A stretch of DNA of 36,087 nt from Bacteroidaceae bacterium (GTDB lineage Bacteria; Bacteroidota; Bacteroidia; Bacteroidales; Bacteroidaceae). The translations under genes and the position numbers were made by a program. Under the pieces are notes generated by a model. That model was not told where the DNA came from, made no database searches, and was given only the letters and a program-made list of their open reading frames with translations. Shown here in pieces: positions 1,439 through 30,416 of the stretch. The DNA is taken from assembly GCA_017933995.1 (NCBI GenBank), contig JAGBKI010000062.1, forward strand, positions 1-36,087, read 5' to 3'. Within the stretch, counting starts at the first letter, position 1. Every line of letters starts with the position of its first letter.

Positions 1439-1533
1439 CAACTTTCTTTCGGAACGGCCAAGTGCTTAGGTAGGGGTTGCGGCGCGGGCAGAAAGCCATA
1501 AAAACTTTTCAAGCCCGATTGATTCTTGCCCAT

Positions 1534-1645
1534 AGCGGACTAATTCTGCAAATTAAGCCTAAGTTTTTACAATTTAAGGCTTAATTTGGCGAAACTTAGG
1601 CTTAGTTTGTACAAACTTAGGCTTAATTTGCAGAATTAGTCCGCT
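1534..1645. repeat. Family A palindromic array: four 21-bp units inside a 33-bp perfect inverted repeat
   Basis: Four contiguous 21-bp units start at 1550, 1571, 1592 and 1613. Each is a 17-bp near-palindrome of the type AAACTTAGGCTTAGTTT followed by a 4-bp spacer (TTAC-, GGCG-, GTAC- and GCAG-like). The whole array sits inside a perfect 33-bp inverted repeat, 1534-1566 against 1613-1645, and the pairing continues imperfectly for a few bases outside. A second array of the same family lies at 16989-17072. It occupies the gap between the divergent mannosyltransferase and phosphatase genes. The 21-bp period is two helical turns, so a protein could bind the same face at every unit. No coding role is likely. 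Confidence 0.9.
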
Positions 1646-1750
1646 GTGGGAGGGATTTTGGTGGGTTTGGTGGCATTTTCTGCCGAGGCTTTTCGGATTG
1701 CGGGGGCTGAAAAACCGCCTCGGGCGCGCGGCGGTATGCGGAAAAGGGTT

Positions 1751-4808: not shown

Positions 4809-4932
4809 ATAAGGTTTAAGTGGTTTAAGGAGGTTTAAGAGGTTTAATCCGTCCGGCAAGACAAAGGGTCGGAATGCTCCGAGGCCGGACGGATTAAGCC
4901 TCATTAAACCTTTTCAACCTCTTAAACCTTAT
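4809..4932. repeat. Family E palindromic element E1
   Basis: A 124-bp imperfect palindrome. Its outer ends are a perfect 12-bp inverted repeat (ATAAGGTTTAAG, 4809-4820, with 4921-4932). The arms are degenerate 9-10-bp units of the type GGTTTAAGN. The inner part is a perfect 13-bp stem TAATCCGTCCGGC (4845-4857 with 4884-4896) around a 26-base loop. Related elements lie at 17273, 22606 and 26666. In E1 the CCGTCCGGC core occurs on both sides of the loop, unlike the other copies. It lies between the ATPase gene and PFOR and may be transcribed as part of the PFOR leader. Confidence 0.85.
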
Positions 4933-16798: not shown

Positions 16799-16988
16799 CG
16801 AAAAAAAGCCGAACCGCAGCCTTAATCGCGCTTAAAACAGCCTATAACCCCTTGAGATAGGGATGAGTGTCGCATATCGACAACCACCAATGAAAACAAG
16901 CGTCAGCCAAACGCCTCGCGGTTCATCTTTTCCCACACAAAAGCGCCCTGAGCGCCCGTCATTCTTCTCTGTATCCACACAAATCTCC

Positions 16989-17072
16989 AAACTAAGCCTA
17001 AGTTTCGCCAAATTAAGCCTTAATTTGTACAAACTAAGCCTAAGTTTTTGCAATTTAAGCCTTAGTTTTGAG
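16989..17072. repeat. Family A array, second locus: four 21-bp units
   Basis: Units start at 16989, 17010, 17031 and 17052, each a 17-bp near-palindrome of the type AAACTAAGCCTAAGTTT with a 4-bp spacer. Short imperfect inverted flanks (ACAAATCTC and GAGATTGT) bracket the array. It belongs to the same family as 1534-1645, with three of the four units there in the opposite orientation. Because 21 is a multiple of three, both strands read through as heptapeptide repeats, which produces a spurious 119-residue frame. Confidence 0.88.
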
Positions 17073-17214
17073 ATTGTAAAGCCAACAGAAACGTTTGCAA
17101 CCACTGCGGATGGAAATTGCAGCCCCTCGCAGCTCTTTTGAAAGTATGTTCGCACAGCGGGTAAGCATTGCGGGAATGCCCAGAAAGCCAAAAGTTAAAA
17201 AAAGTTTCACGCCG

Positions 17215-17272: not shown

Positions 17273-17386
17273 AGGTTTAATAAGGTTGAAAGGTTTAAGA
17301 AGTTTAATGCTGCGCCACGATAGCGCGGTTTTTGCCGGACGGATTAAACCTCTTAAACTTCTTAACCCCCTTAAACCTCTTATTGA
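17273..17386. repeat. Family E palindromic element E2, in the nuo leader
   Basis: The left arm has GGTTTAATAA, GGTTGAAA and GGTTTAAGAA units; the right arm repeats TTAAACNNC with an exact 9-bp period. The 34-base core (17309-17342) is the reverse complement of the E3 core type: CCGTCCGGC is on the right-hand side here. Positioned between the candidate nuo promoter and nuoA, it would form a long hairpin in the 5' leader. Confidence 0.85.
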
Positions 17387-17410
17387 GAGAAATCACAAAC
17401 ACAATAACAA

Positions 17411-17761
17411 ATGAATTTCACTTTGTTTGTCGCGGCGGTGCTGACGGGCGTGGGCTTCGTGGCCATCGTCACGCTGCTGGCCCGCCTGCTGGCGCCGCGC
17501 AGCTTCAACGCGCAGAAGGAGGAGCCGTATGAATGCGGCGTGCCCACGCGCGGAGGCTCGTGGATGCAGTTCCGCGTGGGCTACTACCTCTTCGCCATCC
17601 TGTTCCTCATGTTCGACGTGGAGACGATGTTCCTCTTCCCCTGGGCCGTCGTGATGAGGACGATGGGTCCGGCAGGACTGACGGCAGTCCTGTTTTTCCT
17701 TGCAATTTTAGTTCTGGGCCTGGCCTACGCCTGGAGGAAAGGAGCGTTGAGATGGCGCTGA
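17411..17761 (+). CDS. nuoA: complex I subunit NuoA
   Basis: A 116-residue membrane subunit of NADH-quinone oxidoreductase-type complex I. It has three hydrophobic segments, with the conserved loop (YECGVPTRGGSW) and FDVETMFLFPWA between helices one and two; this loop borders the quinone chamber. Length and order match the family. It is the first gene of the operon, 24 bases after element E2, and its last ten bases overlap the nuoB start, so the two are translationally coupled. No other start codon gives the first helix. Confidence 0.96.
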   Translation: MNFTLFVAAVLTGVGFVAIVTLLARLLAPRSFNAQKEEPYECGVPTRGGSWMQFRVGYYLFAILFLMFDVETMFLFPWAVVMRTMGPAGLTAVLFFLAILVLGLAYAWRKGALRWR

Positions 17762-18387
17762 AACGACCTGCAATCAAGAACATCCCATACGAGGAGTTCA
17801 AGGACAACGAGACGTTCGAGCGCCTCGTCGAGGAACTGAACCAGAACGGTGTGAACATCGCCGTGCGCAGCCTTGACTGGCTGTTCGACTGGGGCCGTTC
17901 GCACTCGCTGTGGCCCCTGACGTTCGCCACGAGTTGCTGCGGCATCGAGTTTATGGCCGTGTGCGCCGCGCGCCACGACATCGCGCGCTTCGGTTTCGAG
18001 GTGACGCGCAACAGCCCGCGCCATGCCGACGTCATCCTGGTGAGCGGCACGATTGTCAAGAAGATGGCGCCGGTGCTGAAACGCCTGTACGACCAGATGG
18101 CCGACCCGAAGTACGTCATCGCCATCGGCGCGTGCAGCGTGAGCGGCGGCCCGTTCCGCAAGAGCTACCACGTGGTGCAGGGCGTGGACGAGATTATCCC
18201 CGTCGACGTCTACGTGCCCGGCTGCCCGCCGCGCCCGGAGTCGTTCCTCTACGGTATGATGCAGCTGCAGCGCAAGGTGAAGGTGGAGCAGTTCTTCGGC
18301 ACCACCAACCGCAAGGAGCGCGACCCCTTCAAACAGGAGTACAAGGAGCGCAGCGAGAAGATACTTGCGCAGCAAGAGGAGGCTTAA
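17752..18387 (+). CDS. nuoB: complex I subunit NuoB (cluster N2)
   Basis: A 211-residue peripheral subunit carrying the terminal 4Fe-4S cluster N2, which passes electrons to quinone. All four ligands are seen: tandem C62-C63 in TSCCGIEFM, C128 in GACSVSGGPF and C158 in VPGCPPRPES. The start at 17752 (ATGGCGCTG) lies inside the end of nuoA, a ten-base overlap in another frame. A frame open from 17533 is only the shadow of nuoA. The C-terminal 30 residues are charged (KERDPFKQEYKERSEK) and longer than in some homologues. Element F1 fills the gap to nuoCD. Confidence 0.97.
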   Translation: MALKRPAIKNIPYEEFKDNETFERLVEELNQNGVNIAVRSLDWLFDWGRSHSLWPLTFATSCCGIEFMAVCAARHDIARFGFEVTRNSPRHADVILVSGTIVKKMAPVLKRLYDQMADPKYVIAIGACSVSGGPFRKSYHVVQGVDEIIPVDVYVPGCPPRPESFLYGMMQLQRKVKVEQFFGTTNRKERDPFKQEYKERSEKILAQQEEA

Positions 18388-18390
18388 CCT

Positions 18391-18492
18391 AAGTAAAAAT
18401 GAAAAAATAATAATTAAAAGTGGTGTTTGGCTTGGCCGCGCACTTTGCCCCAGCCATCACAATTTTCATTTTTACTTTTTAATTTAATCAGA
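18391..18492. repeat. Family F hairpin element F1, between nuoB and nuoCD
   Basis: The left arm AAGTAAAAATGAAAA (18391-18405) pairs perfectly over 15 bases with 18463-18477. The arms continue as A/T-rich 7-bp units (TAAAAAT, GAAAAAA, TAATAAT, TAAAAGT) around a GC-rich centre of about 40 bases. It fills almost the whole 111-base gap between two co-directional genes and would be a long AU-rich hairpin in the mRNA. Confidence 0.8.
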
Positions 18493-18498
18493 ATAACA

Positions 18499-20064
18499 AT
18501 GAACCTACAATACACCCCCGTCGCCCCCGAGGCGCTGCACGCTGAATGTCTGCGGCTGCGCGAGGAGGAGATGATGGACTTCCTGGTGTTCCTCACGGGG
18601 CTTGACCTCGGTGAGGAGGGCTTCGGCGTGGTCTACCAGCTGGAAAGCACGCAGACGGGCAAGCAGGTGAACCTGCGCTGCGTCACGCCCGACCGCGAGC
18701 GTCCCGTGCTGCCCACCGTGAGCGACATCTGGGACATCGCCAACATCTACGAGCGCGAGGCTTACGACTACCTCGGCATCATCTTTACCGGCCACCCCGA
18801 CATGCGCCGCATCTTCCTGCGCGAGGACTGGGTGGGCCACCCCCTGCGCAAGGACGACAAGCCCGAAGAGCAGAACCCCCTGCGCATGGACAACGAGCCG
18901 CTGAGCGACACGACGTGGCAGTACGAACTCTCGCAGGACGGCACGCTCACCAAGCGCGAGAACGTCGTCTTCGCGCCGAGCGACTACGTCGTGAACATCG
19001 GCCCGCAGCACCCCTCTACCCACGGCGTGCTGCACTTCCGCGTGGCCATCGAGGGCGAGACCATACGCCGCGTGGATCCCGTGCTGGGCTACATACACCG
19101 TGGCATCGAGAAGATGAACGAGAGCATGACCTACCCGCAGATGCTCGCCCTGACCGACCGTATGGACTACCTCGGCGCGATGCAGAACCGCCACGCGCTC
19201 TGCAAGGTCATCGAGGAGGCCATGGGCGTCGAGGTGAGCGACCGCGTGAAGGTCATCCGCACCATTATGGACGAGTTGCAGCGTATCGACTCGCACATCC
19301 TCTTCTTCTCCTGTCTGGCGCAGGACCTCGGCGCCACTACCGCCTTCATCTACGGTTTCCGCGACCGCGAGAAAATCCTCGACATCTTCGAGGAGACCTG
19401 TGGCGGACGCCTCATCCTGAACTACAACACTATCGGCGGCGTGATGCACGACCTGCACCCCAACTTCGTGAGCCGTGTCAAGGAGTTCATCCCCGTGATG
19501 CGCAAGGGGTTGAAAGAATACCACGACCTGTTCACGGGCAACGTCATCGCGCGCAACCGTATGGAGGGCGTGGGTATTCTGACCAAGGAGCAGGTCATCG
19601 CGATGGGCTGCACCGGCGGCACGGGGCGCGCCTCGGGCTGGCACAACGACCTGCGCAAACTGCGCCCCTACGACGCCTACGACCGCGTGGAGTTCGACGA
19701 AATCACCTTCACCAAGGGCGACAGCTTCAGCCGCTACATGGTGCGTATGGACGAGATTGAGCAGAGCCTGCGCATCATCGAGCAACTCATCGACAACATC
19801 CCCGAGGGGCCGTTCCAGGAGAAGATGAAGCCCATCATCAAGGTGCCCGAGGGCGTGTACTACAGCGCCGTGGAAGGCTCGCGCGGCCAGTTCGGCGTCT
19901 ACCTCGAAAGCCGTGGCGACAAGAGCCCCTACCGCGTGCACTACCGCAGCACCGGCCTGCCGCTGGTTTACGCCATGAACGCCGCCTGCCGTGGCAACCT
20001 CATCGCCGACCTTGTGACCATCGGCGGCACGTTCGACTACATCGTGCCGGATATTGACAGGTAA
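18499..20064 (+). CDS. nuoCD: fused complex I subunit NuoCD
   Basis: A 521-residue fusion of the two peripheral-arm subunits NuoC and NuoD. NuoC is short (about residues 25-120) and ends with its signature IYEREAYDYLGIIFTGHPDMRR; the usual first segment of NuoC is largely missing. NuoD follows from about residue 160 (NIGPQHPSTHGVLHF, H171 and H175) and includes TDRMDYLGAMQN and the late GESRG-like EGSRGQFGVYL, which shape the quinone site. The start is the ATG at 18499. The frame is open 24 codons upstream but that part lies in element F1. A nuoCD fusion is also known from E. coli and is usual in Bacteroidetes. It sits between elements F1 and F2. Confidence 0.95.
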   Translation: MNLQYTPVAPEALHAECLRLREEEMMDFLVFLTGLDLGEEGFGVVYQLESTQTGKQVNLRCVTPDRERPVLPTVSDIWDIANIYEREAYDYLGIIFTGHPDMRRIFLREDWVGHPLRKDDKPEEQNPLRMDNEPLSDTTWQYELSQDGTLTKRENVVFAPSDYVVNIGPQHPSTHGVLHFRVAIEGETIRRVDPVLGYIHRGIEKMNESMTYPQMLALTDRMDYLGAMQNRHALCKVIEEAMGVEVSDRVKVIRTIMDELQRIDSHILFFSCLAQDLGATTAFIYGFRDREKILDIFEETCGGRLILNYNTIGGVMHDLHPNFVSRVKEFIPVMRKGLKEYHDLFTGNVIARNRMEGVGILTKEQVIAMGCTGGTGRASGWHNDLRKLRPYDAYDRVEFDEITFTKGDSFSRYMVRMDEIEQSLRIIEQLIDNIPEGPFQEKMKPIIKVPEGVYYSAVEGSRGQFGVYLESRGDKSPYRVHYRSTGLPLVYAMNAACRGNLIADLVTIGGTFDYIVPDIDR

Positions 20065-20069
20065 ACTTT

Positions 20070-20236
20070 CAATTAATAAATAAAAAGTAATAGTTAAAAG
20101 TTTAGGATGTTGCGGCGGGTTCGGGCTGCATAGTATTGCGGCTTCCAAGGCCGCCCGAACGACGAAAGGCTTGCGAAATAATGCCTGCCACGGCAAACTC
20201 AACTTTTCACTTTTATTTTTTAACTTTTAATTAGAA
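20070..20236. repeat. Family F hairpin element F2, between nuoCD and nuoH
   Basis: A/T-rich arms of 7-bp units (TAAAAAG, TAATAGT, TAAAAGT on the left; ACTTTTC, ACTTTTA, TTTTTTA, ACTTTTA on the right) enclose a GC-rich centre of about 100 bases. The centre has its own stem, GTTCGGGC (20119-20126) with GCCCGAAC (20153-20160), and an inner GCGGC/GCCGC. The reverse complement of its right arm closely matches the left arm of F3, so the two elements lie in opposite orientation. Confidence 0.78.
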
Positions 20237-20238
20237 TT

Positions 20239-21318
20239 ATGTTCGACTTCACAATAATCACAAACTGGCTTCACACGCTGCTCGTGGGCGTGCTGCCCGA
20301 GTGGGCGGCGGTGCTGACGGAGAGCGTGCTGGTGGCCGTGGTCATCATCTCGCTGGCCGCCATCTTCGCCATGGTGCTCATCTACATGGAGCGCAAGGTG
20401 TGCGCCTTCTTCCAGTGCCGCCTCGGCCCCAACCGCGTGGGCAAGTGGGGACTGCTGCAACTCTTCGCCGACGTGTTCAAGATGTTGCAGAAGGAAATCA
20501 TCAAGATGCGCCAGACCGACCGCTTCCTGCACGACCTGGCCCCCTTCTTCGTCATCACGGCCTCGATGATAACCATCGCCTGCCTGCCGTGGAACAAGGG
20601 CGCGCAAATCCTTGACTTCAACATCGGCGTCTTCTTCTTCCTCGCCGTGAGCAGCGTCAGCGTCGTGGGCATCCTGCTCGCGGGCTGGGGCAGCAACTCC
20701 AAGTACCCCCTCATCGGCGCCATGCGCAGCGGCGCGCAGATCATCAGCTACGAAATCTCCATCGGCATCACGATGCTCACCGTCATCTGCCTCACCGGCA
20801 CGATGCAGATCAGCGAGATTGTCGAGCAGCAGTACACCGAGGGGTGGAATATCTTCCGCGGCCACCTGCCTATGGTCGTCGCTTTCCTTATTTATATGAT
20901 AGCGGGCAACGCCGAGTGCAACCGCGGCCCGTTCGACCTACCCGAGAGCGAGAGCGAACTGACCGCCGGCTACCACACCGAGTACAGCGGTATGCACTTC
21001 GGCTACTTCTACCTGGCCGAGTACATGAACCTGTTCATCAGCGCCGGCCTGGCCACGACCGTGTTCCTCGGCGGCTGGGCGCCCCTGCACATCGCCGGCC
21101 TCGACGGCTTCAACCACGCCATGGACTACATACCCGGCGTGGTGTGGTTCGTGGGCAAGGCCCTGTTCGTCGTGTTCCTCTTCATGTGGGAGCGCTGGAC
21201 GCTGCCCCGCCTGCGCATCGACCACATCCTCACGCTCGAATGGAAATACCTGATGCCCATCAGCCTCGTCAACCTCGTGGTGATGGCGCTCGTCGTAGCC
21301 TTCGGCATTCACTTCTAA
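20239..21318 (+). CDS. nuoH: complex I subunit NuoH
   Basis: A 359-residue membrane subunit with about eight helices that joins the quinone chamber to the proton-pumping arm. Signatures are ERKVCAFFQCRLGPNRVGKWG in the first cytoplasmic loop, GWGSNSKYPLIGAMRSGAQIISYEI, and the acidic AECNRGPFDLPESESELTAGY with conserved glutamates lining the E-channel. Length is close to the usual 325-350. The ATG at 20239 is directly behind element F2. nuoI starts 15 bases after the stop, without an element between them. Confidence 0.97.
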   Translation: MFDFTIITNWLHTLLVGVLPEWAAVLTESVLVAVVIISLAAIFAMVLIYMERKVCAFFQCRLGPNRVGKWGLLQLFADVFKMLQKEIIKMRQTDRFLHDLAPFFVITASMITIACLPWNKGAQILDFNIGVFFFLAVSSVSVVGILLAGWGSNSKYPLIGAMRSGAQIISYEISIGITMLTVICLTGTMQISEIVEQQYTEGWNIFRGHLPMVVAFLIYMIAGNAECNRGPFDLPESESELTAGYHTEYSGMHFGYFYLAEYMNLFISAGLATTVFLGGWAPLHIAGLDGFNHAMDYIPGVVWFVGKALFVVFLFMWERWTLPRLRIDHILTLEWKYLMPISLVNLVVMALVVAFGIHF

Positions 21319-21333
21319 ACCCACGGCGCAGTT

Positions 21334-22083
21334 ATGTCTACATATAAGGAAAAATCATACTTCGAGGGTCTCGCCTGCGGCATCAAGTCGGTGGCTGTGG
21401 GTCTGAAGACCACGATGCGCGAACTGTTCGTGAAGAAAATCACGCAGCAGTATCCCGAGAACCGCAAGGAACTGGTGATGTTCGACCGCTTCCGCGGCTC
21501 GCTCACCATGCCCCACAACGAGAAGAACGAGCACAAGTGCGTGGCCTGCGGCATCTGCCAGATGCAGTGCCCCAACGGCACCATCAACGTGGTCAGCGAG
21601 ATGGTGGAGGCCGACGGCAAGAAGAAGAAACAGCTTGTGCGCTACGAGTACAACCTCGGTTCGTGCATGTTCTGCAACCTGTGCGTCACGGCCTGTCCGC
21701 ACGGTGCCATCGAGTTCGACCAGAGTTTCGAGAACGCCGTTTTCGACCGTTCCAAACTCATCCTCACGCTCAACAAGCCCGGCTCCAAGGTGGCCGAGAA
21801 AGCCAAGCCCGCCCTCACGCCCGAGATGCAGGCCAAGATAGCCGCCGCCAAGGCCGCGAAAGCCGCCAAGGAAGGCGGTGAGGCCGCTCCCGCCGCCCCC
21901 GCTGCTGCGCCCGCCGAGGCCGCCGCGCCTGCTCAGGCAGCACCCGCCGCCAAGCCCGCCCGCCAGTTCTCGCCCGAGATGCTGGCCAAGATTGAGGCCG
22001 CCAAGGCCAAGAAAGCCGCCCGCGAGGCCGCAGCGAAAGCCGCAGCCGAGGCCGGGGAAGTGAAACCCGAAGAAAACAAGTAA
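21334..22083 (+). CDS. nuoI: complex I subunit NuoI with Ala/Lys/Pro-rich C-terminal extension
   Basis: A 249-residue ferredoxin-like subunit holding clusters N6a and N6b. Two 4Fe-4S motifs are clear: C69-x2-C72-x2-C75-x3-C79 and C111-x2-C114-x2-C117-x3-C121. The normal NuoI part ends near residue 155. About 93 further residues are almost only Ala, Lys, Pro and Glu, with two copies of a helix-like block, LTPEMQAKIAAAKAAKAAKE (161-180) and FSPEMLAKIEAAKAKKAARE (212-231), joined by an Ala/Pro linker. The extension is in frame with no stop and keeps the local codon bias, so it is part of the gene. In a complex without NuoE, NuoF and NuoG this subunit is the outermost iron-sulfur carrier, so the tail could help dock an electron donor; that is inference. 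nuoJ follows after six bases. Confidence 0.95.
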   Translation: MSTYKEKSYFEGLACGIKSVAVGLKTTMRELFVKKITQQYPENRKELVMFDRFRGSLTMPHNEKNEHKCVACGICQMQCPNGTINVVSEMVEADGKKKKQLVRYEYNLGSCMFCNLCVTACPHGAIEFDQSFENAVFDRSKLILTLNKPGSKVAEKAKPALTPEMQAKIAAAKAAKAAKEGGEAAPAAPAAAPAEAAAPAQAAPAAKPARQFSPEMLAKIEAAKAKKAAREAAAKAAAEAGEVKPEENK

Positions 22084-22089
22084 AGCCGT

Positions 22090-22602
22090 ATGGACTCCTA
22101 CAATATCATGTTCGTAGTGCTGGCAGGCATCATCGTTGCCTCGTCGGTGCTCACCGTGGTGACGCGCAGCATCATGCGTGCCGCCACCTACCTGTTCTTC
22201 GCCCTGCTCGGCACGGCTGGAATGTACTTCCTGATGGGCTACACCTTCCTCGGCGCGGTGCAGACGATGGTCTACGCCGGAGGCATCATCGTGCTCTACG
22301 TGTTCGCCATCCTGCTGACGCGTGGCACGAAGGACCGCATCAGCGAGAACACCCGCTCCAAGATAGCGCTCAGCGCGCTGCTGTCGCTTGTGGGCTTCGG
22401 CCTCGTGGCCTTCATCATCTTCACGGCCAACCTGCGCGCCCAGGTGATCACCGCGCCCGACGAGAGCGTGATGAACATGTCGACCCTTGGCAGGAACCTG
22501 CTCTCCACCGACCCGGACGGCTACCTGCTGCCCTTCGAGGCCGTCAGCGTGCTGCTCCTGGCCTGCATCGTGGCAGGCGTGATGATTGCACGCAAACGCT
22601 AA
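22090..22602 (+). CDS. nuoJ: complex I subunit NuoJ
   Basis: A 170-residue membrane subunit with five hydrophobic segments. The third carries the signature FLGAVQTMVYAGGIIVLYVF, the pi-bulge helix that couples quinone chemistry to proton movement. It starts six bases after nuoI and is probably coupled to it. Its stop is followed within four bases by element E3, which separates it from nuoK, although in most bacteria nuoJ and nuoK are adjacent or overlap. Confidence 0.95.
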   Translation: MDSYNIMFVVLAGIIVASSVLTVVTRSIMRAATYLFFALLGTAGMYFLMGYTFLGAVQTMVYAGGIIVLYVFAILLTRGTKDRISENTRSKIALSALLSLVGFGLVAFIIFTANLRAQVITAPDESVMNMSTLGRNLLSTDPDGYLLPFEAVSVLLLACIVAGVMIARKR

Positions 22603-22605
22603 TAC

Positions 22606-22720
22606 GAAGTTTAATAAGGTTGAAAAGGTTTAATAAAGTTTAATCCGTCCGGCCTCGGCCTGCGTTTCGTGGCGTAGCATTAAACCTCTTAAACTTCTTA
22701 AACCCCTTAAACTTCTTAAA
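22606..22720. repeat. Family E palindromic element E3, between nuoJ and nuoK
   Basis: The left arm is almost identical to that of E4 (about two differences in 46 bases) and contains TTTAATAAGG and TTGAAAAGG units. The right arm is TTAAACNNC repeated with an exact 9-bp period. The 34-base core (22645-22678) starts with CCGTCCGGC and ends CGTGGCGTAGC. It fills most of the 132-base gap. Confidence 0.87.
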
Positions 22721-22734
22721 AAAACACCTCACGA

Positions 22735-23043
22735 ATGATACAGATAGAATACATCCTGATTGTCTCCGCCGTGATGATGTTTGCCGGCATCTTCGGCTTC
22801 TTCACGCGCCGCAGCACGCTGGCCATCCTGCTCTCCATCGAGCTGATGCTCAACGCCACGGACCTGAACTTCGCCGTCATCAACCGCCTGATGCACACCG
22901 GCGGGCACGAAGGCTACTTCTTCACGCTCTTCAGCATCGCCATCTCCGCCGCCGAGAGCGCCGTGGCCATCGCCATTATGATTAACATCTACCGACAGCT
23001 CAAGGACACCACCGCCGACAAGCTCTCGAAACTCAAATGGTAA
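22735..23043 (+). CDS. nuoK: complex I subunit NuoK
   Basis: A 102-residue membrane subunit with three helices, an MrpC-like part of the proton path. Both conserved acidic residues inside the membrane are present: E36 in LLSIELMLNATDLNF and E74 in ISAAESAVAIAI. Length is normal. The ATG at 22735 comes 14 bases after element E3; element F3 follows the stop and leads to nuoL. Confidence 0.95.
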   Translation: MIQIEYILIVSAVMMFAGIFGFFTRRSTLAILLSIELMLNATDLNFAVINRLMHTGGHEGYFFTLFSIAISAAESAVAIAIMINIYRQLKDTTADKLSKLKW

Positions 23044-23183
23044 CTCGTAAATTAAAAGTTAAAAGATAAAAAGTAAAAGTTGAGAATGGTATAGCCGCGT
23101 AAAAGGACGGCGAGAAGTTCAACTTCTCAATGCAAACGGTGACCCCACTTTTACTTTTTAATTATTACTTTTTACTTAAAAGA
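23044..23183. repeat. Family F hairpin element F3, between nuoK and nuoL
   Basis: The left arm is a clean run of 7-bp units TAAAAGT, TAAAAGA, TAAAAAG, TAAAAGT (23053-23080). The right arm mirrors it with CTTTTTA-type units (about 23147-23178). The centre holds a near-perfect palindrome GAGAAGTTCAACTTCTC. The arms show the clearest 7-bp period of all four F copies. Confidence 0.82.
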
Positions 23184-23186
23184 CTT

Positions 23187-25160
23187 ATGGACTACCAATA
23201 TACGCTTCTCATCCTTTGCCTGCCCATCGTGTCGTTCCTGATACTGGGCATCGGTGGCAAGTGGCTCAGCCACAAGGCCGCTGGGCTCATCGGCACGCTG
23301 AGCATCGGCACGGTGGCCGTGCTGTCCTACTACACGGCGTTCCACTACTTCGCCGAGCGCGGGGCCGACGGCACGTTCGCCTCCATCGTACCCATAAACT
23401 TCGAGTGGCTGCCCTTCTACGTCGGCAACCTCCACTTCGACATGGGCATCCTGCTCGACCCCATCAGCGTGATGATGCTCATCGTCATCAGCACCGTGTC
23501 GCTGATGGTGCATATCTACAGTTTCGGCTATATGCACGGCGAGCGGGGCTTCCAGCGCTACTACGCTTTCCTGAGCCTCTTCACGATGTCGATGCTCGGG
23601 CTGGTGGTGGCCACCAACATCTTCCAGATGTACATGTTCTGGGAACTTGTGGGCGTGTGCTCCTACCTGCTCATCGGCTTCTACTTCACCGAGAAGCCCG
23701 CCATCGCCGCTTCCAAGAAGGCGTTCATCGTGACGCGCTTCGCCGACCTGGGCTTCCTGGTGGGCATACTCGTCTTCGGCTACTACACCGGCTCGTTCAG
23801 TTTTGACTTCACCGAGAACTTCCAGTACGCCGCCGGCGCGCTTCACGGTGTGGCCCCTGACGCCGCCAAGGCCATCGCCGCCGGAGGCTTCATCCTGCCC
23901 ACCGCCCTGTTCCTGATGTTCATCGGCGGCGCCGGCAAGAGCGCGATGTTCCCCCTCCACATCTGGCTGCCCGACGCTATGGAAGGCCCCACGCCCGTCA
24001 GTGCCCTCATCCACGCCGCCACGATGGTCGTGGCCGGTGTGTTCCAGGTGGCCCGTATGTTCCCCATGTGGATACAGTACGCCCCCGAGACGCTGCACTA
24101 TGTGGCCTGGATAGGCGCATTCACCGCTTTCTACGCCGCCGCCGTGGCCTGCGCGCAGAGCGACATCAAGCGCGTGCTGGCCTTCTCCACCATTTCGCAG
24201 ATAGCCTTTATGATGGTGGCCCTGGGCGTATGCACCGAGATGACCACTGGCCACGAGCACGTGGGCAGCGTGGGCTATATGGCCTCGATGTTCCACCTCT
24301 TCACCCACGCCATGTTCAAGGCCACGCTCTTCCTCTGTGCCGGCTGCATCATCCACGCCGTGCACAGCAACGAGATGTCGGCCATGGGCGGTATGCGCAA
24401 GTACATGCCCGTGACGAACTGGACGTTCCTCATCGCCACGCTGGCCATCAGCGGCATCCCGCCCTTCAGCGGCTTCTTCTCCAAGGACGAAATCCTGAGC
24501 GCCAGCTTCGCCTACAGCCCCGTGATGGGCTGGGTGATGACCGGCATCGCAGCCATGACGGCCTTCTATATGTTCCGCGTGTACTACGGCATCTTCTGGG
24601 GCACGGAGAACAAGCAGCTGCACGAGGAGCTCAAGGCGCACGGCCACTTCGGCGAGGCGCCCCTCGTGATGACCGCCCCGCTCGTGCTGCTGACGCTCTT
24701 CACCGTGTTCTGCGGCTGGGCGTTGCCCGGCTCGTTCGGCTCGTTCGTCAGTGCCGACGGCCAGGCGTACAACATCCACCTCGACCCGCAGATTGCCATC
24801 ACCAGCGTCGTCATCGCCTGCATCAGCATCGGCCTTGCCACGTGGATTTACATCCGCAGCAGCCAGCCCGTCGCCGAGCGCCTCAAGGCCGCCATGCCCC
24901 ACCTCCACGAGTGGGCATACCGCCGCTTCTACATTGACGAGATTTACCAGTTCGTGACCCACCGCATCATCTTCGCCTACATCTCGCGCCCCATCGCCTG
25001 GTTCGACCGCCACGTCGTCGACGGCACGCTCAACGGCCTGGCCAGCGGCGCCAACTACGTGGGCGAATCCATCCGTCCCTTGCAGAGCGGACGCTTGCAG
25101 CAGTACGCCTATGTGTTCCTGCTGGGCGTGGTCGTGTTGTTCTTCATTATGATTATCTAA
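23187..25160 (+). CDS. nuoL: complex I subunit NuoL
   Basis: A 657-residue antiporter-like proton-pumping subunit at the end of the membrane arm, with the long C-terminal region that carries the lateral helix. The key charged residues are present: E153 in MYMFWELVGVCSYLL and K251 in GAGKSAMFPLHIWLPDAM, followed by GPTPVSALIHAATMV. The frame is open 19 codons further upstream, inside element F3, but the ATG at 23187 gives the usual N-terminus. nuoM starts nine bases after the stop. Confidence 0.96.
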   Translation: MDYQYTLLILCLPIVSFLILGIGGKWLSHKAAGLIGTLSIGTVAVLSYYTAFHYFAERGADGTFASIVPINFEWLPFYVGNLHFDMGILLDPISVMMLIVISTVSLMVHIYSFGYMHGERGFQRYYAFLSLFTMSMLGLVVATNIFQMYMFWELVGVCSYLLIGFYFTEKPAIAASKKAFIVTRFADLGFLVGILVFGYYTGSFSFDFTENFQYAAGALHGVAPDAAKAIAAGGFILPTALFLMFIGGAGKSAMFPLHIWLPDAMEGPTPVSALIHAATMVVAGVFQVARMFPMWIQYAPETLHYVAWIGAFTAFYAAAVACAQSDIKRVLAFSTISQIAFMMVALGVCTEMTTGHEHVGSVGYMASMFHLFTHAMFKATLFLCAGCIIHAVHSNEMSAMGGMRKYMPVTNWTFLIATLAISGIPPFSGFFSKDEILSASFAYSPVMGWVMTGIAAMTAFYMFRVYYGIFWGTENKQLHEELKAHGHFGEAPLVMTAPLVLLTLFTVFCGWALPGSFGSFVSADGQAYNIHLDPQIAITSVVIACISIGLATWIYIRSSQPVAERLKAAMPHLHEWAYRRFYIDEIYQFVTHRIIFAYISRPIAWFDRHVVDGTLNGLASGANYVGESIRPLQSGRLQQYAYVFLLGVVVLFFIMII

Positions 25161-25169
25161 GCGCAGACT

Positions 25170-26666
25170 ATGAACTTCCTTTCGATATTTGTACTGATAC
25201 CCCTGGTGATGCTGCTGGCCCTGTGGCTGGTCAAGGGGCAGAAAGCCATCCGCACCGTGATGGTCACCGGCAGCACCGCGCTGCTCGCCATGGCCGTCTA
25301 CCTCACCGTAGCGTTCCTCACCGACCGCGCCGCCGGGGCCGACGCCGAGATGCTCTACACGGCCTCGTTCGCCTGGTTCGAGCCGCTCCATATATACTAT
25401 AGCGTCGGCGTCGACGGCATCAGCGTCGCCATGCTCCTGCTCAGCGGCGTCATCGTCTTCACCGGCACGTTCGTCAGCTGGGACATGTGCAAGGAGTACT
25501 TCCTGTGGTTCACCCTGCTGTCGCTCGGCGTGTTCGGCTTCTTCATCAGCGTCGACATGTTCACGATGTTCATGTTCTACGAGGTGGCCCTCATCCCGAT
25601 GTACCTGCTCATCGGCGTGTGGGGCACGGGCAAGAAGGAGTACAGCGCGATGAAACTCACGCTGATGCTCATGGGCGGCTCGGCCTTCCTGATGTGCGGC
25701 ATCTTCGGCATCTTCTACGGCGCCGGCGGCCAGACGATGAACCTCGTCGAGATAGCCAACCACACCGGCGGCGCCCACGCCATCAAACTCAGTGAGCAAA
25801 TGGTGTGGTTCCCGATGACCTTTGTGGGCTTCGGCGTGCTGGGCGCGCTGTTCCCGTTCCACACCTGGTCGCCCGACGGCCACGCCAGTGCCCCCACCGC
25901 CGTGTCGATGCTCCACGCCGGCGTGCTGATGAAACTCGGAGGCTACGGCTGTTTCCGCATTGCCATGTACCTGATGCCCGAGGCCACGCACGAACTGGCC
26001 TGGATTTTCCTCATCCTGACCGGCATCAGCGTCGTCTACGGCGCGTTCTCCGCCTGCGTGCAGACCGACCTCAAGTACATCAACGCCTACAGTTCCGTGT
26101 CGCACTGCGGCCTGGTGCTCTTCGCCCTGCTGATGATCAACGAGACGGCCTGCTCCGGCGCCATCATCCAGATGCTGTCGCATGGACTGATGACGGCCCT
26201 GTTCTTCGCCCTCATCGGTATGATTTACGGCCGCACCCACACGCGCGACATCCGCGAGCTGAGCGGCCTGATGCGCATCATGCCCTTCCTCGCCGTGGGC
26301 TACGTCATAGCCGGTCTCGGCAACCTCGGCCTGCCCGGCCTGAGCGGATTTGTGGCAGAAATGACTATCTTTGTGGGCGCGTTCCAGCACGCCGACACGT
26401 TCCACCGTGTGCTGACCATCCTGGCCTGCTCCAGCATCGTCACCACGGCGGTCTACATCCTCCGTATGGTGGGCAAGATACTCTACGGCAAGTGCACCAA
26501 CGAACACCACCTGGCGCTCACCGACGCCACGCTCGTCGAGCGTTTCCCCGTTGTGGTGCTCATCTGCTGCATCGCCGCCATCGGCCTCGCCCCCTTCTTC
26601 GTCTCCCACCTCGTGAACGGAGGCGTCGTGCCTATCGTTAACCATATCCTTGCTGTGGCAGGGTAA
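25170..26666 (+). CDS. nuoM: complex I subunit NuoM, lacking the helix-7 lysine
   Basis: A 498-residue antiporter-like proton-pumping subunit with about fourteen helices. E138 in FMFYEVALIPMYLL matches the conserved helix-5 glutamate, and K255 in HAGVLMKLGGYG matches the helix-8 lysine. The conserved helix-7 lysine (FAVK in E. coli, five residues before PLH) is replaced: the segment reads GFGVLGALFPFHTW with L224 at that position. The following loop is SPDGH instead of LPDAH. The reading frame is intact and codon use is normal, so this is not a sequencing fault. The change may be a lineage-wide form of NuoM. It is coupled to nuoL by a nine-base gap, and the stop overlaps the beginning of element E4. 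Confidence 0.95.
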   Translation: MNFLSIFVLIPLVMLLALWLVKGQKAIRTVMVTGSTALLAMAVYLTVAFLTDRAAGADAEMLYTASFAWFEPLHIYYSVGVDGISVAMLLLSGVIVFTGTFVSWDMCKEYFLWFTLLSLGVFGFFISVDMFTMFMFYEVALIPMYLLIGVWGTGKKEYSAMKLTLMLMGGSAFLMCGIFGIFYGAGGQTMNLVEIANHTGGAHAIKLSEQMVWFPMTFVGFGVLGALFPFHTWSPDGHASAPTAVSMLHAGVLMKLGGYGCFRIAMYLMPEATHELAWIFLILTGISVVYGAFSACVQTDLKYINAYSSVSHCGLVLFALLMINETACSGAIIQMLSHGLMTALFFALIGMIYGRTHTRDIRELSGLMRIMPFLAVGYVIAGLGNLGLPGLSGFVAEMTIFVGAFQHADTFHRVLTILACSSIVTTAVYILRMVGKILYGKCTNEHHLALTDATLVERFPVVVLICCIAAIGLAPFFVSHLVNGGVVPIVNHILAVAG

Positions 26667-26773
26667 AGTTTAATAAGGTTGAAAAGGTTTAATAAGGTTT
26701 AATCTGTCCGGCTACCGTGCCGTAAGGCGTTAAACCTCTTAAACTTCATTAAACTTCTTAAACCTCTTAAAGT
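26666..26773. repeat. Family E palindromic element E4, between nuoM and nuoN
   Basis: The left arm is nearly the same as in E3; the core is a shorter variant beginning CTGTCCGGC and ending AAGGCG. The right arm has TTAAACNNC units. The first base of the element is the last base of the nuoM stop codon, and only four bases separate its end from the nuoN ATG. Confidence 0.86.
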
Positions 26774-26777
26774 TCCC

Positions 26778-28247
26778 ATGACCAACTACACAGAATTCCT
26801 TTATATGCACGAAGAGCTGGGCCTGCTTGCCGTCATCCTGCTGCTCTTTGTGTGCGACCTGCTCTTTTGCAAGGACAGCAAGCGCGGCGGCGTGTACAAC
26901 ACCGCCCTGCCCGTCATCCTGCTCGGCATCCTGACGGCGTTCAACCTGCTGCCCCTCAGCAACCTGCCGTTTGAGGCATTGGGCGGCATGTACCACCACA
27001 CGCCGATGGACACCATCGTGAAGAGCACCCTCAACATTGGCACGCTCGTCACGTTCCTGATGGCTCACAAGTGGCTCGCACGTCCCGAGAACCTCGTCAA
27101 GCAGGGCGAGTTCTACATCGTGACGCTATTCACCCTCCTGGGCATGTACTTTATGATTTCCAGCGGCCACTTCCTAATGTTCTTCATCGGTCTTGAATTG
27201 GCCAGCATCCCGATGGTCGCCCTTGTGTCGTTCGACAAGTATCGCTACGAGAGCGCAGAGGCTGGAGCCAAGTACATTCTGCTCGCCCTTTTCAGCAGCG
27301 CGCTGTTGCTCTACGGCGTGAGTCTTATTTATGCCGCTACGGGATCTCTCTATTTCAACCAGATTTGGCCCGACGCCTCTTCTTCGTGGTTGTTGCTTTG
27401 CGGTCTGTCGCTTTTTCTTGCTGGTATGGGCTTCAAGATTTCGCTTGTGCCTTTCCACCTTTGGACAGCCGACACCTACGAAGGTGCACCTACTGTCGTC
27501 ACAGGCTATCTCAGCGTTGTAAGTAAGGGTAGTGCCGCCTTTGTTCTGCTCGTTGTTTTGGCCAAAGCGTTTACATTCGGTGGTGTGAAGCTCGACTGGC
27601 AGGTGGCGCTCTTTTGGGTCATCATCGCCAGCATCACCCTTGCCAACCTCTTTGCCATCCGCCAAAGCAACCTCAAGCGCTTCATGGCCTATAGCGCCAT
27701 CTCGCAGGCCGGCTACCTTGTGCTCGGCATTATGGGCGGCACCGAACCCGCCGCCGACGGCTCGGCGCAGGGTATGACCGCGCTGGTGTTCTACCTGCTC
27801 GTTTACCTCGCCGCCAACATGGGCGCTTTCGCCGTTATCAACGTCGTGGAGCAGAACAGTGGCAAACTCGCCATCAAGGACTACAACGGCCTCTACGGCA
27901 CCAACCCCAAACTGGCCTTCCTGATGACGCTCTGCCTCTTCTCACTGGCCGGCATCCCGCCGTTCGCAGGCTTCTTCTCCAAGTTCTTCATCTTCATGGC
28001 CGCCTTCAACGCAGGCTTCAAGGTGCTGGTGTTCATCGCCTTGGTAAACACCATCATCTCGCTCTACTACTACCTGCTCATCGTCAAGGCGATGTACATC
28101 AGCAAGAGCGATACCCCTGTGGCCACGTTCAAGAGCGACGGTTACACGCGCGCCGCGCTGGCCATCTGCACCGCTGGCGTTCTGCTGCTCGGCATCGCTG
28201 GATGGGTCTACAACTACCTTGACAGCATCGCCAAAGTTAGCCTATAG
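26778..28247 (+). CDS. nuoN: complex I subunit NuoN
   Basis: A 489-residue antiporter-like proton-pumping subunit and last gene of the operon. The charged residues of the proton path are all present: E140 in [13 protein letters not shown]220 in [14 protein letters not shown] and K250 in [11 protein letters not shown]. Unlike its neighbours, the middle of the gene (about 27200-27600, strongest 27315-27590) uses many codons ending in T or A, while both ends have the C/G-ending codons typical of the operon. No frameshift accompanies this. The hairpin F4 follows the stop by about ten bases and probably ends the operon. Confidence 0.95.
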
Positions 28248-28257
28248 GCGGATAGTT

Positions 28258-28352
28258 GATTGTTAAAAGGCAAAAGCGAATAGTTGGGTTACGCTTGCTG
28301 GCATTCTTTCGGCCTCCGTAACCCAACTATTCACTTTTGCTTTTTAACGATT
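28258..28352. terminator. Family F hairpin F4, likely two-way terminator between convergent genes
   Basis: Nearly continuous pairing over about 34 base pairs: a perfect 16-bp inner stem GAATAGTTGGGTTACG (28278-28293 with 28317-28332) and outer A/T-rich 7-bp units (TAAAAGG, CAAAAGC with ACTTTTG, CTTTTTA). It lies between the nuoN stop and the DUF3256-like stop and would end transcripts from both sides. It has the same arm style as F1-F3. Confidence 0.75.
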
Positions 28353-28357
28353 CTTGC

Positions 28358-28993
28358 TTAGAGCCGCTTCTTCCTCCAGCTCCCGCGCTGCCATACCAGC
28401 ACAACAGGACGCAACAGCGCGTTTGCGTCCTGCTGTTCCTCTTTACTGAGGTTCTGCGTACCAACTTCCAGCGTCAGCATTTCGGATTCGGCTGCCCATT
28501 TTGCGCCGATGTGCAGGGGGAACAGGATGCTGGACAGGCGCTTGCGCTCTATGTAAACCACGCTGTCGGGTGCCTGGATAAAGTCACCCAAGTCGGGCAT
28601 GGCGAACTGCGGAATGTCCGTACAGTAGTCGGCTGTGTAGAAGACGATGTGGCTGTCTGGCGCAGGGGTAAGGAGCGTGTAGATGGATGCGAACACCTCG
28701 CTTGTGTCGGTTTGCAGTTTGCGTATTTCCAATCGGCTTGAAGGAGTGAGCAGGATGCTCAAAAAATCGTCTGTCTTGTGCGCGATGCGGGTCGGCAACC
28801 CGAAGAGATTGTCCACAACGGGTTCTGCCCCGCGTTGTGCCAGCTGCATCAGTTCCACCCTCGCCTTGCGAGGCAGCACGAGGAGCAGGCTGTCGGGCAT
28901 CTCCACGAAAAAGCGTTCAATCGTGGCTTGTGCCATTCCTGTAATGGGCAGCGTGGCAACGGCTATTGTGGCAAAAAGCGTTCTGATAGACAT
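28358..28993 (-). CDS. exported DUF3256-like protein
   Basis: A 211-residue protein with a signal peptide (residues 1-21, ending ITGMAQA), so probably periplasmic. The mature part begins FFVEMPDSLLLVLPRKARVEL and contains the pattern 'MPDS...LP...R..LM' and 'DNL.G..T.I...TDDFL.I.L.PSS' that I associate with DUF3256, a Bacteroidetes family of unknown function. There are no catalytic motifs, metal sites or membrane helices beyond the signal. It starts 21 bases after the GH109-like gene and should be co-transcribed with it; the pairing may be incidental. No function is proposed. Confidence 0.65.
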   Translation of the reverse strand: MSIRTLFATIAVATLPITGMAQATIERFFVEMPDSLLLVLPRKARVELMQLAQRGAEPVVDNLFGLPTRIAHKTDDFLSILLTPSSRLEIRKLQTDTSEVFASIYTLLTPAPDSHIVFYTADYCTDIPQFAMPDLGDFIQAPDSVVYIERKRLSSILFPLHIGAKWAAESEMLTLEVGTQNLSKEEQQDANALLRPVVLVWQRGSWRKKRL

Positions 28994-30231: not shown

Positions 30232-30416
30232 GCAAAGATACTGCAAGGCGAGTGCAATGGAAAAATAGCGCAGCTTTTTTCCATTGCCGAGCCGCCGCAT
30301 ATCTTCGTGAAGCAAAGATACTGCAAGACGAGTGCAATGGAGAAATAGCGCAGCTTCTTTCCATTGCCGAGCCGCCGCATATCTTCGTGAAGCAAAGATA
30401 CTGCAAGGCGAGAGCA
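30232..30416 (-). repeat. Family H tandem array: two 80-bp units plus a partial third, each with a -7 box
   Basis: Units 30232-30311 and 30312-30391 differ at about three of 80 positions; a third copy is cut short after about 25 bases (30392-30416). On the minus strand each begins with TATCTTTGC, an exact TAnnTTTG box (30240-30233, 30320-30313, 30400-30393), so three potential promoters point at the GH109-like gene. Each full unit also folds into a hairpin: GCAATGGAAAAA with TTTTTTCCATTGC around TAGCGCAGC in the first unit, with an outer stem formed by AAGATA and TATCTT. A diverged single copy precedes the histidine phosphatase at 13122-13204. Confidence 0.88.

Follow-up and report, generated by a model that had tools for sequence, protein, structure and literature searches.

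E and F palindromes fill the long gaps of a Bacteroidaceae nuo operon and occupy stop-to-start junctions elsewhere in the genome

The nuo operon of a Bacteroidaceae bacterium (contig JAGBKI010000062.1) raises the question of why its long intergenic gaps are filled by palindromic DNA. The operon lies in the window analysed here, a stretch of 36,087 bases that is the whole of contig 58 of 66 in a draft genome of 2.48 Mb. It has ten genes (Table 1), separated by -10 (A-B), 111 (B-CD), 174 (CD-H), 15 (H-I), 6 (I-J), 132 (J-K), 143 (K-L), 9 (L-M) and 111 (M-N) nucleotides (nt). Five of these nine junctions are long, and each is occupied by a palindrome of one of two families, E and F, so that 24, 12, 16, 15 and 5 nt of other sequence are left between the stop and the start codons. 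The initial annotation had given these lengths and the positions of the elements exactly, together with an E element in the leader and an F element at the end of the operon. It proposed that the palindromes form long hairpins which tune subunit amounts or, alternatively, that they are selfish elements persisting only where they break no gene. We found that E and F elements are not special to nuo, and that their density there is not beyond chance.

Both families are found throughout the genome. The E motif, with 3 mismatches allowed, gave 84 matches against 4 for the reversed pattern, and the F motif, with 2 mismatches, gave 107 against 1. The E matches, of which about 4 are expected by chance, correspond to 57 places, with only one half recognised in 31 of them; 100 of the 107 F matches correspond to at least 52 places. 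A well-preserved element consists of two inverted halves of about 45-48 nt, made of 7-10-nt units with a GC-richer core at the end, and a variable interior. The E half approximates AAGGTTTAAGAGGTTTAATGAGGTTTAAGAGGTTTAATCCGTCCGGC, with fixed ends and a drop of conservation at both sides (52 halves). The F half approximates AGTTAAAAATTAAAAGGTAAAAGTTAAAAGTTGAG followed by TTTGG-like letters and also has fixed ends (61 halves). Units are spaced by 9-10 nt in E and by 7 nt in F, and the measured palindromes span about 70-180 bp. Interiors vary from copy to copy; sub-types recur and, by eye, some F interiors contain another repeat. In the sampled stretches L214, L216, L205 and L190, F interiors hold a further repeat type, AACCACAAA..ACACAAA, which is inverted in L214 and L190, so that palindromes are nested there. 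Two E elements (G000 C13:18124-18225 and C31:14719-14820) carry identical rare core variants and an 85-nt spacing, perhaps reflecting a recent duplication of a larger region.

The placement of the elements follows a narrow rule. Counted as gaps with an element in the stretches and loci examined, 66 of 75 were co-directional (E 31 of 36, F 35 of 39). Co-directional, divergent and convergent gaps numbered 31, 4 and 1 for E and 35, 1 and 3 for F; an earlier count had given 28, 3 and 0 for E, besides one element lying in a gene and another at an edge; for F it had given 34, 1 and 3, besides one at an edge. For comparison, co-directional gaps make up 59% of the intergenic bases (excess of E/F, P = 3e-8) and 79% of the gaps (P = 0.03) in a 394.3-kb genome sample composed of the window and 20 further stretches (L numbers). 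Distances to the flanking codons were taken in 55 of the 66 co-directional gaps, the other 11 (3 E, 8 F) being dropped for lack of a recognisable unit on one side. No more than 60 nt of other sequence is present in 51 of these 55, and gaps that tight account for 1,794 of the 32,430 palindrome-free co-directional bases of the sample. The quartiles are 2, 5 and 7.5 nt from stop to arm and 7, 9 and 13 nt from arm to start (7, 8 and 10 nt for F as measured). The distance is 15 nt or less from stop to arm in 51 of the 55 cases, from arm to start in 42, and on both sides in 40. The sequence left has a median of 19.5 nt for E and 12 nt for F; for comparison, the median of native co-directional gaps of 0-60 nt is 21 nt (n = 53). 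One E element directly follows the gene for ATP synthase subunit a, and in the L250 cluster F halves occupy three successive junctions. The ribosomal L22 gene lies in a 28-gene cluster, assigned to S10/spc by position only, whose 27 junctions showed no palindrome, and this one cluster would fit a cost of the elements in strongly expressed operons.

E and F elements are thus not equally frequent in all gaps of the genome, being concentrated in tight co-directional junctions. The interpretation of the initial annotation is partly supported. Its picture of selfish elements tolerated wherever harmless does not agree with elements that fail to spread over intergenic DNA. The edge-to-edge pattern in nuo is an instance of a wider rule, which neither the regulatory nor the selfish idea predicts alone.

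Comparison with relatives indicates near restriction to one lineage and rapid turnover. With 1 mismatch allowed, the E motif gave 53 matches in this genome and 1 in the 57 other genomes of the genus, and the F motif 33 in this genome and 10 in four of the 57 others (7 of them in genome G010). The closest sequenced relative, G012 (NuoM 93% and NuoB 99% identical), gave 0 E and 0 F matches at 1 mismatch. The comparison of nuo gaps in relatives that the initial annotation had suggested gave 41, 40, 15, 4, 19, 202, 12 and 30 nt in G012 from B-CD on, compared with 111, 174, 15, 6, 132, 143, 9 and 111 nt here; only its K-L gap is long. That gap holds a palindrome made of GGAGTTATAA-like units which, to the eye, does not resemble F3. 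No palindrome was detected in the B-CD and CD-H gaps of G012 at a scan score of 13, and J-K and M-N leave no room for one there. Across nine nuo genes the two genomes agree at 59% of fourfold sites; the remaining flanks are therefore not alignable and exact insertion points are unreadable. A nuo junction survey of 101 rows, in which gaps below 40 nt were not scanned, gave 52 palindromic gaps, including one duplicate (K-L of G012). Palindromes are unevenly distributed over the junctions (P = 0.002), most often at CD-H (16 of 96 rows) and never at A-B (0 of 91), which nearly always overlaps. At least seven G rows of this survey duplicate L rows with identical gaps (G012=L077, G013=L078, G017=L087, G021=L083, G026=L082, G032=L081, G036=L086), two A-B values (490 and 151) are probably due to wrong gene ends, and wrong starts of a longer CD protein probably explain several of the B-CD gaps that exceed 130 nt.

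E and F belong to a larger population of palindromes. An ungapped inverted-repeat search (score 15 or more) detected 95 palindromes in the sample, 93 of them intergenic, and 0 in the block-shuffled control. By eye, the families besides E and F include ATTGACC, AATTAGG, AGGTTTTT and AAACATT types, a separate AAATTAAGCCTAAGTTT type and GC-rich ones. AT-rich arms show a 7-nt period: compared with shuffles, matches are in excess at lags 7, 14 and 21 (z of 11.0, 5.4 and 5.9; lag 8, z 3.4), in a test on 42 of the 93 intergenic palindromes that left out 38 GC-richer or short-armed ones and 13 of the AAATTAAGCC type. In G012, the arms gave a lag-7 z of 14.8 (274 kb, 35 palindromes, 21 arms used). Gaps with 60 nt or less of other sequence hold 14 of 19 heptad palindromes in our genome versus 16 of 67 others (P = 0.0002). 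In 80 Bacteroidales loci the co-directional counts are 24 of 30 versus 22 of 88 (Fisher P = 1.6e-7), the control being other palindromes of these loci, which were centred on nuo and therefore over-represent tight gaps. GC-rich palindromes and most AAATTAAGCC-type ones occupy longer gaps; the tight-junction rule is therefore not general to all palindromes of the genome. Elements of an ATTTACN type in L115, L146 and L156 have, by eye, a common 8-nt unit, second from the outer end.

Returning to nuo, the cluster is probably a single transcript, and all seven elements in its region fold better as RNA than dinucleotide shuffles of the same stretches (z -2.7 to -9.7). The assignment of F1 comes from its left half, which aligns with the F family (L177 + 2582), the F motif giving no match. 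E4 starts on the final base of the nuoM stop codon. The gap of F4 is convergent, unlike those of F1-F3, the next called gene (28358-28936) being on the minus strand. The ungapped scan missed E3 and therefore scored only four of the five long nuo gaps; outside nuo it found a palindrome in 22 of the 74 gaps of 80-250 nt between co-directional genes. By motif, nuo is the densest 10.84-kb window for E and F together, with 5 places compared with at most 4 in other separate windows among the matches listed. The nuo finding was itself picked for density, and uniform placement of 109 elements produced a window with 5 or more in 11% of simulations (P = 0.11).

Table 1 Positions of the nuo genes and of the E and F elements in the window
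Feature	Position	Strand	Evidence
nuoA, B, CD, H, I, J, K, L, M, N	17411..28247	+	Pfam matches, all ten proteins; order A, B, CD, H, I, J, K, L, M, N
E2, E palindrome, nuo leader	17273..17378	.	inverted repeat 36+36 nt, 81%; E half motif match; fold z -5.7
F1, F palindrome, nuoB-CD	18391..18477	.	15-nt perfect arms, 111-nt gap; fold z -2.7
F2, F palindrome, nuoCD-H	20071..20232	.	35-nt arms, 80%; F motif matches; fold z -5.4
E3, E palindrome, nuoJ-K	22603..22718	.	inverted repeat; E motif match, 1 mismatch; fold z -2.9
F3, F palindrome, nuoK-L	23050..23177	.	31-nt arms, 81%; F motif matches; fold z -3.1
E4, E palindrome, nuoM-N	26666..26771	.	27-nt arms, 85%; E motif match, 1 mismatch; fold z -4.0
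F4, F-like palindrome, 3' of nuoN	28259..28351	.	35-nt arms, 91%; fold z -9.7; no F motif match, assigned to F by eye
E1, E palindrome outside nuo	4809..4932	.	49-nt arms, 82%; two motif matches; E core in both halves

These data make it unlikely that the hairpins are tuned to nuo, setting subunit stoichiometry at chosen junctions by way of processing, stability or partial termination. The high local density, the folding of all seven stretches and the uneven distribution over nuo junctions, led by CD-H, would fit such tuning. However, the density is unexceptional after scanning, and the junctions of relatives are mostly short or carry other families. Two further points speak against a role specific to nuo: the genome-wide occurrence of elements that are nearly confined to this genome within the genus, and their lack in the closest relative, where four of the five corresponding junctions are short. 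Terminator-like sites (a GC-rich hairpin with an immediate U tract) are moreover at chance level between positions 16900 and 28700 (11 found, 10.3 expected). The same count makes intrinsic terminators or attenuators an improbable explanation. F arms do read as U-rich 3' flanks, and the convergent gap of F4 is a setting in which one would expect a bidirectional terminator; 6 of 7 convergent gaps of 80-120 nt in the sample have some palindrome. E and F elements nevertheless lie mostly between close co-directional genes, E being convergent in 1 of 36 gaps, and no terminator-like site falls inside an element on the plus strand, with two on the minus strand, in F2 and F3. Rfam 15 gave no match above the gathering score; two far below it, to miRNA families, fell on F4 and F1.

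A different possibility, which we hold to be real though doubtful, is that the elements are selected at junctions because they benefit operons through spacing, cistron insulation, ribosome release or mRNA protection, unrelated families having converged in build and place. Different heptad families in different Bacteroidales, placed alike between stop and start and sharing the 7-nt period here and in G012, favour such convergence. Rapid turnover between related species argues against it, as does the missing sign of helix selection, concluded because G-U mismatches are not in excess over A-C and the arms of an element resemble each other no more closely than they resemble arms of other elements. 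Read in the sense of the transcript, co-directional palindromes of every kind contain 68 G-U and 60 A-C mismatches in our genome (64 palindromes) and 44 and 52 in other genomes (81 palindromes); the 49 heptad palindromes contain 24 and 33. Arm identity is 0.790 within elements and 0.813 after partner permutation for E (16 pairs, P = 0.945), and 0.688 and 0.694 for F (19 pairs, P = 0.68). Near-identical units can pair in any combination, and a hairpin function is therefore compatible with arms that do not co-evolve. Homogenisation of arms by template switching or co-evolution was rejected for both families. A first small comparison of elements picked by ungapped arm match had given identities within and between elements of 0.860 and 0.772 (E, 6), 0.849 and 0.781 (F, 5) and 0.900 and 0.715 (H, 4); this signal was lost with motif-anchored halves (E 0.665 and 0.653, F 0.474 and 0.464) and partner permutation. 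A few elements of other families (L071, L146, L156) appear to have irregular units common to both arms. The elements may also, with some doubt, be ordinary miniature inverted-repeat transposable elements (MITEs), that is, non-autonomous transposons with terminal inverted repeats which use a transposase in trans and are kept only where harmless. The E and F halves are indeed terminal inverted repeats of fixed length, in many copies and nearly restricted to one species. Porphyromonas gingivalis belongs to the Bacteroidales. MITEs with internal tandem repeats occur in P. gingivalis, according to the part of the source cited here (PMC4596501). Against MITEs, interiors vary between copies, and elements kept where harmless should favour long and convergent gaps, in which E and F are under-represented. 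In 16 E elements the longest word shared by the flanks averages 4.25 nt, compared with 4.29 for shuffled partners, giving no target-site duplication above shuffled partners, although fuzzy boundaries could hide one of 2-3 nt. Five genes match Y1_Tnp, and in hairpin scans around four of them (all but C47; the genome is 84% complete) neither E nor F was seen beside the gene. This result from four genes makes an origin from RAYT (REP-associated tyrosine transposase) genes or from IS200 less likely.

We consider it probable that E and F are interspersed intercistronic palindromes resembling repetitive extragenic palindromic (REP) sequences, which have spread in this lineage and lodged at co-directional stop-to-start junctions without a nuo-specific design. 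We infer mobility from copy number and restriction. The families would have spread most simply after the split from the closest sequenced relative. The elements would be transcribed together with their neighbours and form a stem with its foot about 5 nt past the stop codon. Such a hairpin would loop out the insert and bring stop and start within roughly 12-20 nt of each other, so that the junction may still work as before. Some REPs of Escherichia coli lie 15 nt or less from stop codons and are reported, in the cited part of one study, to stall ribosomes and lower translation (PMC12306157). By analogy, E and F would probably have a modest side effect, acting on the ribosome as it terminates or on how the upstream cistron decays. 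Since 51 of the 55 measured elements lie in this stalling zone, a small general effect on upstream cistrons would be expected instead of a tuned nuo programme.

Several points weigh against this interpretation. The genome is a draft, 84% complete, and gene calls and start codons come from a simple in-house caller. The sources of the placement counts include four dense stretches (L250-L253) picked for their E/F content. The unit pattern of F is loose and measured F distances may be too short; hairpin-based boundaries (27 palindromes) gave comparable values for F and E members. The missing sign of pairing selection speaks against an RNA-hairpin function, and the structured-RNA control of the G-U test was too small (7 tRNAs; 1 G-U, 1 A-C). 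Neither a target-site duplication for E nor an alignable empty site was found, and no transposase partner turned up, no systematic search between E or F ends having been made.

More tentatively, the Bacteroidales may have a class of operon-junction elements defined by architecture, in which unrelated families consist of inverted arms of degenerate 7-nt (sometimes 8-10-nt) units, begin about 5 nt after the stop, end about 8-12 nt before the start and lie between co-directional genes. Families would turn over while period and position stay. Such a class would need either a copying process that finds junctions, perhaps via ribosome-free polycistronic mRNA, or a common intercistronic function of any heptad palindrome. 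If it exists, a good part of the operon intergenic space in gut and rumen Bacteroidales would be fast-turning palindromes a few nt from stop and start codons, which would bear on operon polarity, on ribosome recycling and reinitiation, and on the gain of intercistronic DNA. Bacteria of the Bacteroidales type are said to depend little on Shine-Dalgarno pairing.

Other repeats were seen in the genome. Palindromes of the AAATTAAGCCTAAGTTT-unit type, with arms of up to 59 nt and a short loop, lie at window positions 1529-1650 and 16982-17075 and recur in the sample, mostly in longer gaps. A candidate intergenic MITE, GC-rich and about 240-250 bp long (GACGCTGGAAGCGTC...CTCTGTAACCGCAGGT), with inverted arms 80-94% complementary, was found at L059 17606-17844, L061 16075-16322, L065 14971-15221 and L066 4100-4349. 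At window positions 30254-30367 the self-complementary stretch GCAATGGARAAATAGCGCAGCTTYTTTCCATTGC occurs twice with 46 nt between the copies, and look-alike pairs lie at L071 107-299 and L073 3248-3373.

How do E and F compare with known systems? REPINs, which are associated with RAYT transposases, consist of two inverted half-elements and a spacer. E and F resemble them in having inverted halves with a spacer, but their halves are 45-48 nt of tandem units and no Y1 gene adjoins them at the four of five scanned. REP sequences and bacterial interspersed mosaic elements (BIMEs) of E. coli and its relatives are, as described in the part of the account used here, multi-copy, extragenic and palindromic, and lie between operon genes or after the last gene (PMC12306157). 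E and F are likewise multi-copy, extragenic and palindromic and lie in places of this kind, and like REPs they would be transcribed. However, REPs are given as 20-40 bp in the cited part of another report (PMC3733652), far shorter than E and F with their tandem 7-10-nt units per arm and variable interiors. According to the same part of the E. coli account, 446 of 4,072 predicted REPs lie 15 nt or less from a stop codon (PMC12306157), compared with 51 of 55 measured E/F elements. The MITEs of P. gingivalis, including BrickBuilt, are likewise intergenic, with inverted ends and internal tandem repeats; in the portion of the paper cited, BrickBuilt combines a direct array of 23-nt units with terminal repeats, about 12 nt long, that resemble those of the IS5 family (PMC4596501), whereas the inverted ends of E and F are the unit arrays themselves. 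TAACTGA heptamer repeats of marine Beggiatoaceae, some Cyanobacteria and five Bacteroidetes share with E and F the 7-nt units and the mostly intergenic location, many being just upstream of start codons. Unlike E and F, they repeat one sequence in direct orientation, apart from one inverted case, and the part of the report cited here does not mention filling from stop to start (PMC4679880). Six repeat stretches of 17 to 20 letters had no match in literature text, and no account of heptad palindromes in Bacteroidales was found in the literature searched, which lay outside preprints and most subscription journals. By size, cognate transposase and target duplication, E and F are not established as REPs, REPINs or MITEs. 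They are like REPs in where they lie and in how many there are, but they are longer, consist of tandem units and fit their junctions far more tightly. In their placement and their short-unit build, they look like an undescribed version of the known intercistronic repeats.

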